Source: Acetobacteraceae bacterium (lineage in GTDB: Bacteria > Pseudomonadota > Alphaproteobacteria > Acetobacterales > Acetobacteraceae). From it: a stretch of 64,000 nucleotides of DNA. Both the position numbers and the translations under genes were made by a program. The stretch is taken from the NCBI GenBank assembly GCA_024280945.1, contig JAMXLO010000146.1, forward strand, positions 1 to 64,000. The letters run 5' to 3'. This document shows positions 43,194 to 48,539 of this stretch, piece after piece; the stretch's first letter is position 1; each line of letters starts with the position of its first letter. The notes beneath the pieces were generated by a model, which saw nothing but the letters and a program-made list of their open reading frames with translations, searched no databases and had not been told where the DNA came from.

Positions 43194-43427
43194 TCAGTCG
43201 GGGGCTGAGGTCTGTAACGCGAGGGCGTGCAGCTCGCCCCCCATGCGGCCGCGCAACGCCGCATAGACGATCTGGTGCTGCTTGACGCGCGGGATGCCGC
43301 GGAACGTCTCGGAGACGACCGTGGCGGCATAGTGGTCACCGTCACCAGCGAGGTCCTCGACGGTGACACGCGCGTCCGGGATCGCGGCCTTGATCAGCGC
43401 CTCGATCTCATTCGCCGCCATCGCCAT
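43194..43427 (-). CDS. bolA: BolA-family protein
   Basis: The 77-residue protein is a class I/II BolA domain: [27 protein letters not shown], then [25 protein letters not shown] with the conserved histidine. BolA-Grx4 complexes hold an Fe-S cluster and act in iron homeostasis. ATG 43427 has GGAGG 6 bp upstream, lying inside the 3' end of purL, which it overlaps by 20 bp. Close linkage with grxD supports the pair acting together. Confidence 0.95.
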
Positions 43428-45648
43428 GCCGGTCCTCCATCCAGGACGGGAAGAATCGTTCATGCGCCGCGCGCAATGCCCGCACGGATATTGTGCCCCC
43501 ATCGGGCAGTGTCAAATCCTGTCCACCGGATGTGCCGATGCGTACGGCTATCAGCCCAGCCGCTTCGGCCGCCCGGATCAGCGACCCGGCATCCGGGACG
43601 GCCAGCACGTAGCGGCCCTGGTCCTCGCCAAACCAATAGGCGTGACCCGGAATCTCGCGTGGACCGGTGAACACACGTGCGCCGGTCAAACCCGCCATGG
43701 CCATCTCCGCCAGCGCGACCAGCAATCCGCCGTCAGAGACGTCGTGGCAGGCCCGCACATTGCCAGCGAGGATTTGTGCGCGGACGAAATTTCCAACGGC
43801 CTTCTCGGCGACGAGGTCGACAGGCGGTGGCGCGCCCTCCTCACGGCCTGCGATCTCGCGCAGCCAGAGCGACTGGCCAAGCCAACCTTTGGTCTCACCG
43901 ACAACGACGACATCTAGCCACGGCCCCAGTGCAATGCCGACAACCTTCCTCACGTCGTCCAGCACACCGAGACCGCCGATCGCCGGTGTCGGGAGAATCG
44001 CGCGCACGCCGCCGGAAGGCAGCCGTGTCTCATTGTATAGACTGACATTGCCCGAGACGACGGGGAACTCAAGCGCTTCGCACGCCGTCGCCATCCCGCG
44101 AATGGCCGCGGCGAACTCGCCCATGACCTCCGGCCGCTCCGGGTTGCCGAAGTTCATGTTGTCGGTGATCGCCAACGGCCGTGCACCCACCGCTGTCAGG
44201 TTGCGCCAAGCCTCGGCGATCGCCTGCCGGCCACCGGTCTCTGGATCGGCAGCGCAATAGCGTGGCGTGCAATCGGTGGTCAGGGCTAGCGCTCGCGTCA
44301 GTCCTTCCAGCTTCACCACTGCCGCGTCAGCGGCTCCCGGCCGCTTCACCGTCTGCCCACCAACCGTGCTGTCGTACTGATCCCAGACCCAGGCGCGGGA
44401 GCAGAGATCGGGGCACGCCACCAGTTTCCACAGCGCCGACGTCAGACCAAGGCGGTCTTCCACCCTGGCGGCGTTGATCACCTCGTGCTTCTTCGTCTCC
44501 GTGGTCGGGCGGTGGTAAAGCGGCGCCTGTTCGGCCAGTGGCGCCAGTGGAATGTCCGCTTCCACCGCGCCATGATGACGCACCACGATGCGACCGGTGT
44601 CTGTCAGCCGGCCGATCACGGCAAAGTCCAATTCCCACTTCTCGAAGATTTTTCGCGCGGCGTCCTCGCGGTCGGGGCGCAGCACCATCAGCATGCGCTC
44701 CTGGCTCTCCGACAGCATGAACTCATAGGCGGTCATGCCGGTCTCCCGCGCCGGCACGCGATCCAGATCGAGCTCGATACCGACACCGCCCTTCCCTGCC
44801 ATTTCCACCGATGAACTGGTGAGTCCGGCGGCACCCATATCCTGAATGGCGACGATGGCGTCGGTGGCCATCAGCTCCAGGCACGCCTCGATCAGCAGCT
44901 TCTCGGTGAACGGGTCGCCGACCTGCACGGTGGGACGTTTTTCGTCCGCATCAGCGCCGAACTCGGCCGAGGCCATCGTGGCCCCGTGGATGCCGTCGCG
45001 CCCGGTCTTCGAGCCGACATACACCACCGGGTTGCCGACTCCCGCTGCCGCCGAGAGGAAGATGCGGTCGACCGGCGCAATGCCGACGGTCATGGCATTG
45101 ACCAATGGATTGCCGTCATAGGCCGGGTGAAAATTGATTTCACCGCCGACCGTCGGCACGCCCACACAATTGCCGTAACCGCCGATCCCGCGCACCACGC
45201 CATCGACGATGCGCTTGGTCACCGCGTTGTCGGGTGAGCCGAAGCGCAGCGCGTTCAGATTGGCGATCGGCCGTGCACCCATGGTGAAGACATCGCGCAA
45301 GATGCCGCCCACTCCTGTGGCTGCGCCCTGGTACGGCTCGATGAAGCTCGGATGGTTATGGCTTTCCATCTTGAATACGGCGGCCAGGCCGTCCCCGATG
45401 TCCACGACACCGGCGTTCTCGCCAGGACCATGGATGACCCAGGGCGCCTTGGTTGGCAGTTGGCGCAGCCAGACCCGGGATGACTTGTAGCTGCAGTGCT
45501 CCGACCACATGACGCTGAACACGCCGAGTTCGGTCAGCGTCGGTGTGCGGCCCATGATCTCCAGGACTCGCCCGTACTCATCGGCCGAAAGCCCGAATTC
45601 GGCGGCGAGCGCCTGGTTGACGACGGGGGATGTGCTCGGGTGGTCCAT
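43408..45648 (-). CDS. purL: Phosphoribosylformylglycinamidine synthase subunit PurL
   Basis: The 746-residue ATP-dependent synthase is the small PurL type that works with PurQ and PurS to make FGAM in purine synthesis. It has [25 protein letters not shown] near residue 35, [34 protein letters not shown] near residue 108, and [19 protein letters not shown] 45648 ([10 protein letters not shown]) gives the standard length; an in-frame GTG at 45726 would overlap the divergent Uma2 gene. No strong ribosome-binding site is seen. The gene is cut off from purQ by the antisense Uma2 insert and may have its own promoter. Confidence 0.95.
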
Positions 45649-45718
45649 GGCGCGGGGCTGATATAACTGCTCCGGCGGCAGGCTGCCATCCGGGCGGCGA
45701 ACGCGGTAATCTGTCGGC

Positions 45719-46309
45719 ATGGACACGGTTTACGACACGGGCGTTCTCAGCCGCTATCCAGTGCCCCGGCACCGTTTGACACGGCGCGACTACTATCGTC
45801 TGGCCGAGGCCGGCATCCTGTCGGAGGACGATCGCGTCGAGCTGCTGGAAGGACAACTGGTTGATTTGTCGGCGATCGGGCCACGCCATGCGATCGCGGT
45901 GGATGCACTGACTGAAGTGCTTGTCCTGGCTGCGGCTGGCCGCGCGGCGGTGCGGGTACAAAACCCGATGGTGCTGGACGATAATTCGGAACCACAGCCG
46001 GACATCACTCTCGTGCGACGCCCCTGGCACGGCTATCCGCATGAACATCCGCGACCCTCTGACATTTATCTGTTGATCGAGGTCGCCGACTCGAGCCTGG
46101 AATTCGATCTTGGGGCAAAGTTGGAACTATACGCCCGGGCCGGCATTCGCGAATTCTGGGTGGTGGACCTTCCTGGCAATCGCGTTCTGGTGCATCGCGG
46201 CCCGAACGGCGGTGGATACGATCCGACGCCCATCGTCGATATGTCGGGTACGGTCCAAGTCGAAGCGCTGCCCGATGTGACGATCTCGGCCGCGCGGATC
46301 TTCGTCTAG
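45719..46309 (+). CDS. Uma2-family (DUF820) PD-(D/E)XK nuclease-like protein
   Basis: The 196-residue protein has the Uma2 restriction-endonuclease-like fold: E44 in [10 protein letters not shown]95 in PDITLV, E121 in LLIEVADSS, and K134 in [21 protein letters not shown]. Uma2 proteins are abundant in cyanobacteria and scattered in alphaproteobacteria, and their role is unknown; a link to mobile DNA has been proposed. It lies on the opposite strand between purQ and purL, 70 bp from the purL start and 3 bp from the purQ stop, so it interrupts an otherwise conserved operon. Confidence 0.88.
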
Positions 46310-46312
46310 CGA

Positions 46313-46993
46313 CTACTGAGCCGCCAGCGCGTCGAACATCGGCTTGCCGTCGATGCCACCCATCAGCGGGTCCACAAGGTCCTCGGGATGCGGCATCAGG
46401 CCCAGGACGCGCAGATTGGGCGACAGGATGCCGGCGATCGAGTGGGCACTGCCGTTGAGATTGGCTTCGGATGTGATCTCGCCGGTTGGGGTGGCGTAGC
46501 GCAGCGCCACCAGCCCCTCGCCTTCCAGCCGATCGAGCGTGGCATCGTCGGCAAAATAGTTGCCGTCGCCGTGCGCCATCACCGCGCGAAATGTCTGGCC
46601 GCGCTGGTACTGGTTCGTGAACACCGTGTCGCTTCGCTCGACCCGCAAATGGCAGTCCATGGAAAGGAAGCGGAGCGAGGCGTTGCGCAACAGGGCACCA
46701 GGCAGCAGACCCGCTTCAGTCAGGATCTGGAAGCCGTTGCACACGCCGAGGATATAGCCCCCACGGGCAGCGTGCTCACGCACCGCGCTCATGACCGGGG
46801 AGTGCGCTGCCATCGCACCGCAGCGCAGGTAGTCACCATGCGAAAAGCCCCCAGGGATCACGACGAGGTCCAGACCGCTGAGGTCCGTTTCCTTATGCCA
46901 GATCATCCGGGGCTCGGCGCCCGACTGGCGCAGCGCGATCACCATGTCGCGCTCACGGTTGATGCCGGGGAAGACGAGGATACCGGCTCTCAT
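46313..46993 (-). CDS. purQ: Phosphoribosylformylglycinamidine synthase subunit PurQ (glutaminase)
   Basis: The 226-residue class I glutamine amidotransferase has nucleophile C85 in GVCNGFQIL, the oxyanion region [16 protein letters not shown], and the catalytic H/E pair in [14 protein letters not shown]. It supplies ammonia to PurL. ATG 46993 has GGAAGG close by, and a hairpin-bearing 53-bp repeat lies just upstream. Its stop is 3 bp from the end of the antisense Uma2 gene, which separates it from purL. Confidence 0.96.
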
Positions 46994-47002
46994 GGAACCT
47001 TC

Positions 47003-47055
47003 CGGGCGAACACCCGGCTATCTGAGCCTGCGACCGGGCTTGCCCCGATAGTCAT
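47003..47055. repeat. Dispersed 53-bp leader repeat, copy B
   Basis: This is the partner of 22628-22680, aligned without gaps. It contains a hairpin CCGGG/CCCGG at 47002-47017 and a degraded version of the second stem. It lies 10 bp upstream of the purQ start codon, in the same relative position as copy A before its downstream gene. Confidence 0.65.
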
Positions 47056-47075
47056 GGCCTGGCCCGACCAGCCCA

Positions 47076-47447
47076 TCATCGATGCGGCTCAGTGCACGGA
47101 AAGAAGCGGACGATGGCCTGGCCGACGGCAGCCGGCGCCGGTCCGTCCTCGTGCGTATCTGCATAGGCCGTCACCACCTGCGCCAGCAGGTCCGGCGTGA
47201 AGTCGGACGGCGGACAGACACCGCGCGGTGGTGTGGGAGCGAATTGCAGATCGTAAATGCCGGAGACGTAGCCCACGCACAGGCCGTGCTGGGCCGGTTC
47301 GGCCGAATGGCAGGCGGTGGCCAATTGCCTTGAGGTCATCTGCTTCCAGCCTTGCTGCGCCGGCTGGCCATGGGCGCGTGCCGTCAGCAGAGGCAAAGCT
47401 GCGGCTAGCAGCAGGAGACGTCTCCCCCTCGCCTTGCGGGAGTACAT
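47076..47447 (-). CDS. Small secreted protein with Rap1a/Tai-like domain
   Basis: The 123-residue protein has a basic start (MYSRKARGRR), a hydrophobic stretch LLLLAAALPLLTARAHG that looks like a signal peptide, and a mature part with cysteines in ATACHS, GLCVGYVSGIYD, GVCPPSDFTPDLLAQVV and a final FFPC. That pattern is the Rap1a/Tai family, first known as immunity proteins against type VI secretion amidases but also widespread as secreted proteins of unknown role. No amidase is encoded nearby. It lies between purS and purQ on the operon strand. Part of its start region is made of repeat-like sequence. Confidence 0.72.
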   Translation of the reverse strand: MYSRKARGRRLLLLAAALPLLTARAHGQPAQQGWKQMTSRQLATACHSAEPAQHGLCVGYVSGIYDLQFAPTPPRGVCPPSDFTPDLLAQVVTAYADTHEDGPAPAAVGQAIVRFFPCTEPHR

Positions 47448-47480
47448 TGGTGGCAGGGGGCGACCGGACCATCCCGCGGC

Positions 47481-47515
47481 CCCCTCCCCCCACCCCCCTC
47501 GCGCAAGGGGAGGGG
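47481..47515. repeat. C-rich/G-rich palindromic element between purS and the Rap1a-like gene
   Basis: CCCCTCCCC at 47481-47489 pairs exactly with GGGGAGGGG at 47507-47515 around a C-rich loop ending CTCGCGCAA. A second, related sequence (CTCCCCCTCGCCTTGCGGGAG) lies at about 47422-47442, inside the first codons of the Rap1a-like gene, and a third is at 35.88-35.92 kb. Such elements are common intergenic palindromes in alphaproteobacteria. The function is unknown. Confidence 0.6.
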
Positions 47516-47535
47516 GAGTGCTTGGTGCCGTGTGT

Positions 47536-47778
47536 TCACCCATCCACCGACACCCGGAAACTTTCGATCACCGGGTTCGCCAGCAGCTTGGTTGCCATCT
47601 GTTCGGCCGCCGCGCGCGCACGGTCGGGGTCGCTTTCCGTCAATTCGAGTTCGATCACCTTGCCGGCCCGCACTTCACCCACGGCGTCGAACCCAAGCGA
47701 GTTCAGTGCGTGGCCGATAGCCTTGCCCTGTGGATCGAGTACGCCGACCTTCAGCATCACCGTGACGATGGCCTTCAC
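47536..47778 (-). CDS. purS: Phosphoribosylformylglycinamidine synthase subunit PurS
   Basis: The 80-residue protein starts [21 protein letters not shown], has the HALNSLGF and [12 protein letters not shown] segments of PurS, and ends [13 protein letters not shown]. It bridges PurQ and PurL in the FGAM synthase complex. Its ATG overlaps the purC stop (ATGA), so the two are coupled. Next on this strand comes a palindromic element and then the Rap1a-like gene. Confidence 0.96.
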
Positions 47779-48539
47779 TGCATCAGCTCCGGACCCTTCA
47801 TGTCGCGCACTCCCGCCTCCGGCAGGATGCCGAGACGCTTCGCCACTTCCTGGTACGCCTCCTCGACCTTGCCCATGTCACGGCGGAAGCGGTCCTTGTC
47901 CATCTTCTCGTTTGTTTTCGAGTCCCACAGTCGACAATTGTCGGGACTGATCTCATCGGCCAATACGATGCGCATTTCATCGTTTTCCCACAGCCGCCCG
48001 AACTCCAGCTTGAAGTCGACCAGGCTGATGCCGACACCAAGGAACAGGCCGGTCAGGAAATCGTTGATCCTCAGGGTGAGCGCAACGACATCGTCGAGAT
48101 CAGCGGCATTGGCCCAGCCGAAGCAGGTGATGTGTTCTTCGGAGACCAGCGGGTCGTTCAGTGCGTCGTTCTTGTAATAGTACTCGATGATCGAGCGCGG
48201 CAGCCGGGTGCCTTCGGGAATGCCCAACCGCTGAGAGAGACTGCCGGCCGAGATGTTACGCACCACCACTTCGAGCGGAATGATCTCAACCTCGCGAATG
48301 AGCTGCTCGCGCATATTCAACCGGCGCACGAAGTGGGTCGGAATGCCGATCTCCGCCAGCCGCATCATCAGATACTCGCTGATCCGATTGTTCAGGACGC
48401 CCTTCCCGGTGATCACGCCCTTTTTCTGCGCGTTGAAAGCGGTCGCATCGTCTTTGAAATATTGCACGAGCGTACCGGGTTCCGGCCCCTCGAACAGGAT
48501 TTTGGCTTTCCCTTCGTAGAGCTGGCGGCGGCGGGCCAT
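47775..48539 (-). CDS. purC: SAICAR synthetase
   Basis: The 254-residue ligase joins aspartate to CAIR in purine synthesis. It has [15 protein letters not shown] near the start, [17 protein letters not shown], the [42 protein letters not shown] core, and [13 protein letters not shown] 48539 has AAGGGG 7 bp upstream; the long upstream frame is not family sequence. It is the first purine gene of the block, 70 bp after the NRDE gene on the same strand. Confidence 0.96.

Follow-up and report, generated by a model that had tools for sequence, protein, structure and literature searches.

In the lineage of the Acetobacteraceae genome studied here (G000), a solitary Uma2-family gene, belonging to a subfamily that is resident in the clade, has in our estimation probably been inserted antisense between purQ and purL, by a homology-independent or illegitimate route and in such a manner that purL would still be transcribed. 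We interpret the arrival of this gene as accidental, a mobile solo gene having been captured at an operon junction permissive to insertion, and the sequence comparisons presented below indicate that its insertion is derived relative to other genera and is lineage-specific. The gene is located in a window of 64,000 nucleotides, corresponding to positions 1 to 64,000 of the forward strand of contig JAMXLO010000146.1 (GenBank assembly GCA_024280945.1), and the features of the locus are collected in Table 1.

Table 1. Features at the purQ-purL junction and in the adjoining part of the purine operon, with positions in the window.
Feature	Coordinates	Strand	Basis
Uma2-family gene, 196 aa, ATG start	45719..46309	+	Pfam PF05685, 1.2e-31
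purQ, FGAM synthase glutaminase subunit	46313..46993	-	NCBIfam NF002957, 2.9e-90
purL, FGAM synthase large subunit, 747 aa from ATG 45651	43408..45651	-	NF002290, 5.4e-302
Gap between Uma2 and purQ, convergent stop codons, 3 bp	46310..46312		sequence
Gap between Uma2 and purL, divergent starts, 67 bp	45652..45718		sequence
purS	47536..47778	-	NF004630, 6.7e-29
purC, head of the visible purC-purS-purQ-purL run	47775..48539	-	TIGR00081, 4e-67
Rap1a-domain ORF between purS and purQ, sense	47076..47543	-	PF18602, 1e-12

The gene order at this locus is purC-purS-[Rap1a ORF]-purQ-[Uma2]-purL, with Uma2 being the only gene in antisense orientation. An earlier sequence-only reading had proposed an antisense Uma2 gene at this position, and both the presence of the open reading frame and the Pfam and NCBIfam matches to all three genes confirm it; the distance of 3 bp that it gave from the purQ stop codon is likewise correct, while the gap that it described between the Uma2 and purL starts is present but measures 67 bp between the two ATG codons instead of the claimed 70 bp. 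In-frame start codons are found upstream of the purL start at positions 45720 (ATG) and 45726 (GTG) and the frame remains open up to these codons, so that PurL could also be 770–772 aa long and start atop the Uma2 start. The evidence nevertheless favours the form of 747 aa, since its residue 21 is where the curated PurL models set in and the proteins of relatives start at approximately this point. Between purS and purQ, Rap1a-like ORFs were also observed in G014, G074 and G039 (60–62%), with weaker counterparts in G146 and G083 (32–33%), and since similar ORFs thereby occupy the same place in five relatives, the Rap1a insert is probably older than that of Uma2.

Concerning the distribution of the arrangement, the family sample consisted of 150 Acetobacteraceae genomes including the window genome, of which 134 with purQ and purL were kept; G114, G144, G145, G147 and G069 (purL match without the N-terminus), G027 (purQ split in two) and secondary partial rows from other genomes were left out of the count. 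The two genes were collinear on one contig in 125 of the 134 genomes and not collinear in the remaining nine, and a Uma2 gene was present between them in just one of the 125, namely the window genome. No Uma2 gene was detected by tblastn in the other purQ-purL junctions of the family, and a profile constructed from 84 Uma2 proteins and applied to 84 purine loci produced a match in the positive control (L001) only. The family Uma2 loci and 61 loci from a wider contig search were examined for purQ or purL nearby; in a set of 99 loci, these genes turned up solely in L099, which is the locus of the window itself, and in the purine loci L134 and L135, which had been fetched on purpose. A search of plasmids with PurL returned distant matches only, and a narrow literature search on purQ-purL order in the group yielded nothing on a Uma2 arrangement.

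In a PurL tree of 31 rows the window genome is sister to G094, G289 and G099 (support 93/90). A segment of 3,546 bp in G099 is identical to a public contig from an uncultured Rhodopila, which makes the Acetobacteraceae the most likely family. A possible purL start is located 71 nt past the purQ stop in G094, 1 nt inside that stop in G289 and 10 nt past the stop in G099, the two genes being adjacent in all three sisters. The junctions of the nearest relatives are therefore empty and the insert is nested among uninterrupted junctions, as expected of a lineage-specific interruption, and the absence of the arrangement from close relatives (present in 1 of 125) upholds the insertion proposed by the sequence-only reading. 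The same three genomes encode the closest Uma2 homologues among 397 family genomes (69% in G099, 67% in G289 and 64% in G094, the latter copy containing an internal stop codon), and these homologues sit among unrelated genes. The clade thus harbours the subfamily at varying positions, and in the window genome it went into the purine operon. The homologues of G289 and G099 have approximately 95 nt of 5′ flank in common although their neighbouring genes differ; homology to the window Uma2 gene stops at the ends of the ORF, with nothing significant shared outside. Neither purQ nor purL was found in the assembly of G051, the sole genome of the same genus compared, which is 73% complete.

The junctions themselves were inspected for hallmarks of insertion. 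Target-site duplications, for which the sequence-only reading had suggested inspecting both ends, were looked for and not found: no duplication or terminal inverted repeat links the two junctions within positions 45560–46420. A 9-nt repeat at the 46.31-kb junction was rejected as a target-site duplication, given that its other copy lies inside Uma2 and that approximately one such pair is expected by chance (an estimate). The immediate neighbours of Uma2 are purQ and purL, with no transposase or integrase gene beside it, and the site thus shows neither the duplication or terminal repeats nor the adjacent transposase that would mark a transposon-borne gene. Excision of Uma2 would leave 3 + 67 nt, which is close to the 71-nt spacer of G094; as a remnant of the ancestral spacer these nucleotides were rejected, being no more similar to the G094 spacer than shuffled sequences are (p 0.23 and 0.95). 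Nor do the 67 nt resemble the 5′ flanks of the G289 and G099 Uma2 homologues (p 0.11–0.47). No pair of empty and filled sites is close enough to give breakpoints. With no insertion hallmark at the site, the case for the insertion of a mobile gene is drawn entirely from distribution. Most likely a short fragment, which may have been an intragenomic copy or a piece from a related genome, was integrated illegitimately or independently of homology; as its place is between a stop codon and a start codon, no reading frame is disrupted, which would explain why the insertion was tolerated.

The encoded protein matches Pfam PF05685 with 109.9 bits (cut-off 27), the alignment covering residues 24–191 and profile positions 3–171 of 172. 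An AlphaFold2 model (pLDDT 88.8, pTM 0.84) has 6okh, 9y1l, 1wdj and 3ot2 as its best PDB matches, of which 1wdj and 3ot2 are given as DUF820 structures. The predicted fold is of the PD-(D/E)XK (restriction-endonuclease-like) type and hence nuclease-like, so that the fold assigned in the sequence-only reading is borne out by a confident model and its structural matches. D95 and E121 are kept in all 84 aligned Uma2 proteins (its own sequence counted), and K134 and E41 in 99% of them; we take D95, E121 and K134 to be candidate active-site residues. Comparison with the G289 homologue (NG86) gave a dN of 0.28 and a dS of 1.32, i.e. a dN/dS of about 0.21, a ratio that also covers the time before insertion and in which dS, being above 1, is near saturation; this value indicates purifying selection on Uma2 over the lineage. 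The protein encoded here is an intact, conserved nuclease-like protein, and nothing suggests a role for it in purine synthesis.

In sequence, fold and conserved acidic residues the protein resembles the Uma2/DUF820/COG4636 family, which two sources describe as PD-(D/E)XK proteins, likely solo toxins or predicted nucleases, occurring in paralogue cassettes (PMC2701414, PMC1913061). An expansion of the family in Thermus and cyanobacteria is described in a third (PMC1274311). The genes in those bacteria are described as solo genes with several paralogues per genome, as is the case here (PMC1274311, PMC2701414), but the copy analysed in this study departs from that description in lying antisense inside a core biosynthetic operon without an adjoining paralogue. 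There is no adjacent antitoxin gene in the same direction, the 3-bp and 67-bp gaps leaving no room for one, and the locus does not have the layout of a type II toxin-antitoxin module. Uma2 also matches four PADLOC PDC-S03 models (best 1.6e-12), which are presumably phage-defence candidate models; as such models are candidates only, the matches provide a lead, at the level of sequence, towards a possible defence role.

Eight Uma2 matches are present in the window genome. A second copy (contig 53; L136/L002) lies in sense orientation between scoA and scoB, which encode subunits A and B of 3-oxoacid CoA-transferase. Among 15 genomes examined, the scoA-scoB gap, taken by hand between best matches, is 736 bp in the window genome, 712 bp in G051 and 47–70 bp in 11 others, with the G094 pair being on different contigs and G370 having no close pair. 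In G051 the gap (L228, C78) is occupied by a GNAT acetyltransferase gene and contains no Uma2, so that the single gene carried at this junction differs between two species of one genus; the G051 relative of the scoA-scoB Uma2 (79% over 107 aa) is located on another contig, where neither scoA nor scoB is close by. Two further copies in the window genome (L003 C16 and L004 C130) lie close to sucD and hslV, within tight runs of housekeeping genes.

How readily the purQ-purL junction opens was assessed at two taxonomic levels. The class sample comprised 102 genomes with both genes, almost one per family and including a single member of the Acetobacteraceae (G040); the window genome, the weak PurL matches of G531 and G479, the weak PurQ match of G479 and second or partial rows were left out of this count. 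The genes were collinear in 97 of these genomes and not collinear in five, and the collinear junctions measured up to 100 bp in 84 cases, 101–400 bp in eight and more in five, all five intervals above 400 bp having been read. Within the family, 99 of the 125 collinear junctions measured no more than 100 bp between matches and 26, the window included, were wider; 19 junctions measured at least 485 bp, i.e. that of the window and those of 18 genomes of 13 other genera, and all 18 of these other intervals (>480 bp) were read. The assertion in the sequence-only reading that the operon is normally uninterrupted thus holds across the class (84 of 97 junctions tight) but is weakened within the family, where the 26 wide and nine non-collinear cases show that purQ-purL is not an inviolate junction.

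Reading of the intervals revealed a DUF29 gene in G138, in G125 (L083) an antisense PPK2 gene with a 3-bp overlap of the purQ stop, and in G036 (L069) an antisense LCCL/OmpA gene whose end is no more than 8 bp away from that stop codon, with a similar arrangement in G121 (L079); antisense neighbours of purQ are consequently not unique to the window genome. Some wide intervals, e.g. those of G064, G080 and G005, contain no clear gene by simple ORF scoring. In seven genomes, belonging to several genera, the gene immediately preceding purL is in sense orientation and encodes a protein of approximately 190 aa that contains a DUF4096 (IS4/5 transposase) domain, at L145 (G124), L146 (G044), L147 (G011), L148 (G102), L150 (G104), L151 (G107) and L152 (G003); the domain was assigned by Pfam for G124, G011, G107 and G102 and the other three are alike by eye, and the protein may be a fragment of a transposase that was domesticated. 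In G482, which belongs to a different family (L224 219-903, -), a Gp49-like and HTH_37 gene pair, presumably a toxin-antitoxin pair, lies between purQ and purL.

These observations bear on the possibility that Uma2 relocates itself, i.e. that the nuclease behaves like a homing endonuclease and catalyses its own movement into junctions between genes. Such a capability would accord with the different positions of the closest homologues in sister genomes, with the splitting of operons of subunit genes by two of the eight copies in the window genome, and with the predicted nuclease fold and its conserved candidate active-site residues. At the site, however, there is neither a target-site duplication nor a terminal repeat, and no target sequence is shared; the G289 and G099 homologues share their 5′ flank yet have different neighbours, and unrelated genes also enter these junctions, which implies that the junction and not Uma2 may be what matters. 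We therefore give self-relocation only a slim chance.

A further question is how purL is expressed beyond an antisense gene. Employing crude scans with simple consensus rules, for which fewer than one site is expected by chance, neither a sigma-70-like promoter nor a terminator-like site was identified in positions 45500–47100, and the suggestion in the sequence-only reading that purL was forced to adopt a new promoter is not borne out by these scans. The interference between purQ and Uma2 transcripts that the same reading raised is a conjecture. Taken together with the lack of a duplication, repeat or transposase, this result means that neither transposition nor promoter replacement is borne out. 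As the crude scan detected no terminator-like site between purQ and purL, read-through that reaches purL, whether or not a weak start in the 67-bp gap contributes, appears a little likelier than a forced new promoter: purL would probably still be transcribed by purCSQ read-through across the antisense Uma2 gene and/or from a start site within the gap. In 25 of 52 family junctions read base by base, a possible purL start overlaps the purQ stop by 1 or 4 nt, and the translational coupling that may operate at many relatives' junctions would be lost here.

It is also conceivable that the antisense gene serves as a regulatory device, tuning purQ or purL through antisense RNA or a shared divergent promoter. 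The convergent stops and divergent starts lie at distances that would suit this role, and unrelated antisense genes end no more than 8 bp from the purQ stop in two genomes of another genus (g37) and one genome of g46; the cargo nevertheless differs each time (LCCL/OmpA, PPK2 and Uma2), which speaks for chance landing, no promoter-like site was identified in the scanned region, and the Uma2 arrangement occurs in one sampled genome only, making a regulatory function highly improbable. Nothing was found in favour of an ancestral Uma2 arrangement, which would require that G094, G289, G099, G014 and many other genomes had each lost the gene independently and regained a tight junction; such an arrangement is very improbable indeed. 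The draft status of the genome (156 contigs) could raise the prospect of an assembly or binning artefact, which we scarcely credit as the junction stretch occurs once in its genome, lies well inside a 169-kb contig and leaves the Uma2, purQ and purL reading frames complete.

With a solo Uma2 gene inserted at the purQ-purL junction, the locus adds an example to a known kind of event, the interruption of operons by mobile solo genes. In "The life-cycle of operons", Price, Arkin and Alm reportedly describe the interruption of operons by horizontally acquired or relocated genes, in which a foreign or relocated gene comes to lie within an old operon in one lineage and relatives keep the order, as is the case here. 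The present example differs from theirs in the antisense orientation of the inserted gene, in the 3-bp gap to the upstream stop codon and in the repeated opening of the junction within one family.

Across genera the purQ-purL junction carries Uma2, DUF29, PPK2, LCCL/OmpA and DUF4096 genes, and the scoA-scoB junction carries Uma2 or an acetyltransferase gene. It may be, and we advance this as an unlikely yet tentative proposition, that junctions between the subunit genes of one enzyme serve repeatedly in these bacteria as docking sites, at which single genes can be exchanged and may lie in either orientation, through a process that targets or tolerates coupled stop/start junctions and in which Uma2 would perhaps be a frequent passenger. 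Recurrent exchangeable cargo between subunit genes would be more interesting than the single Uma2 case. PurQ, PurL and PurS act together, and a backward gene in this essential biosynthetic operon represents a clean natural case in which promoter gain, read-through and subunit balance come into question; since the junction has been opened repeatedly in the family, the Uma2 insertion can be compared with natural replicates.
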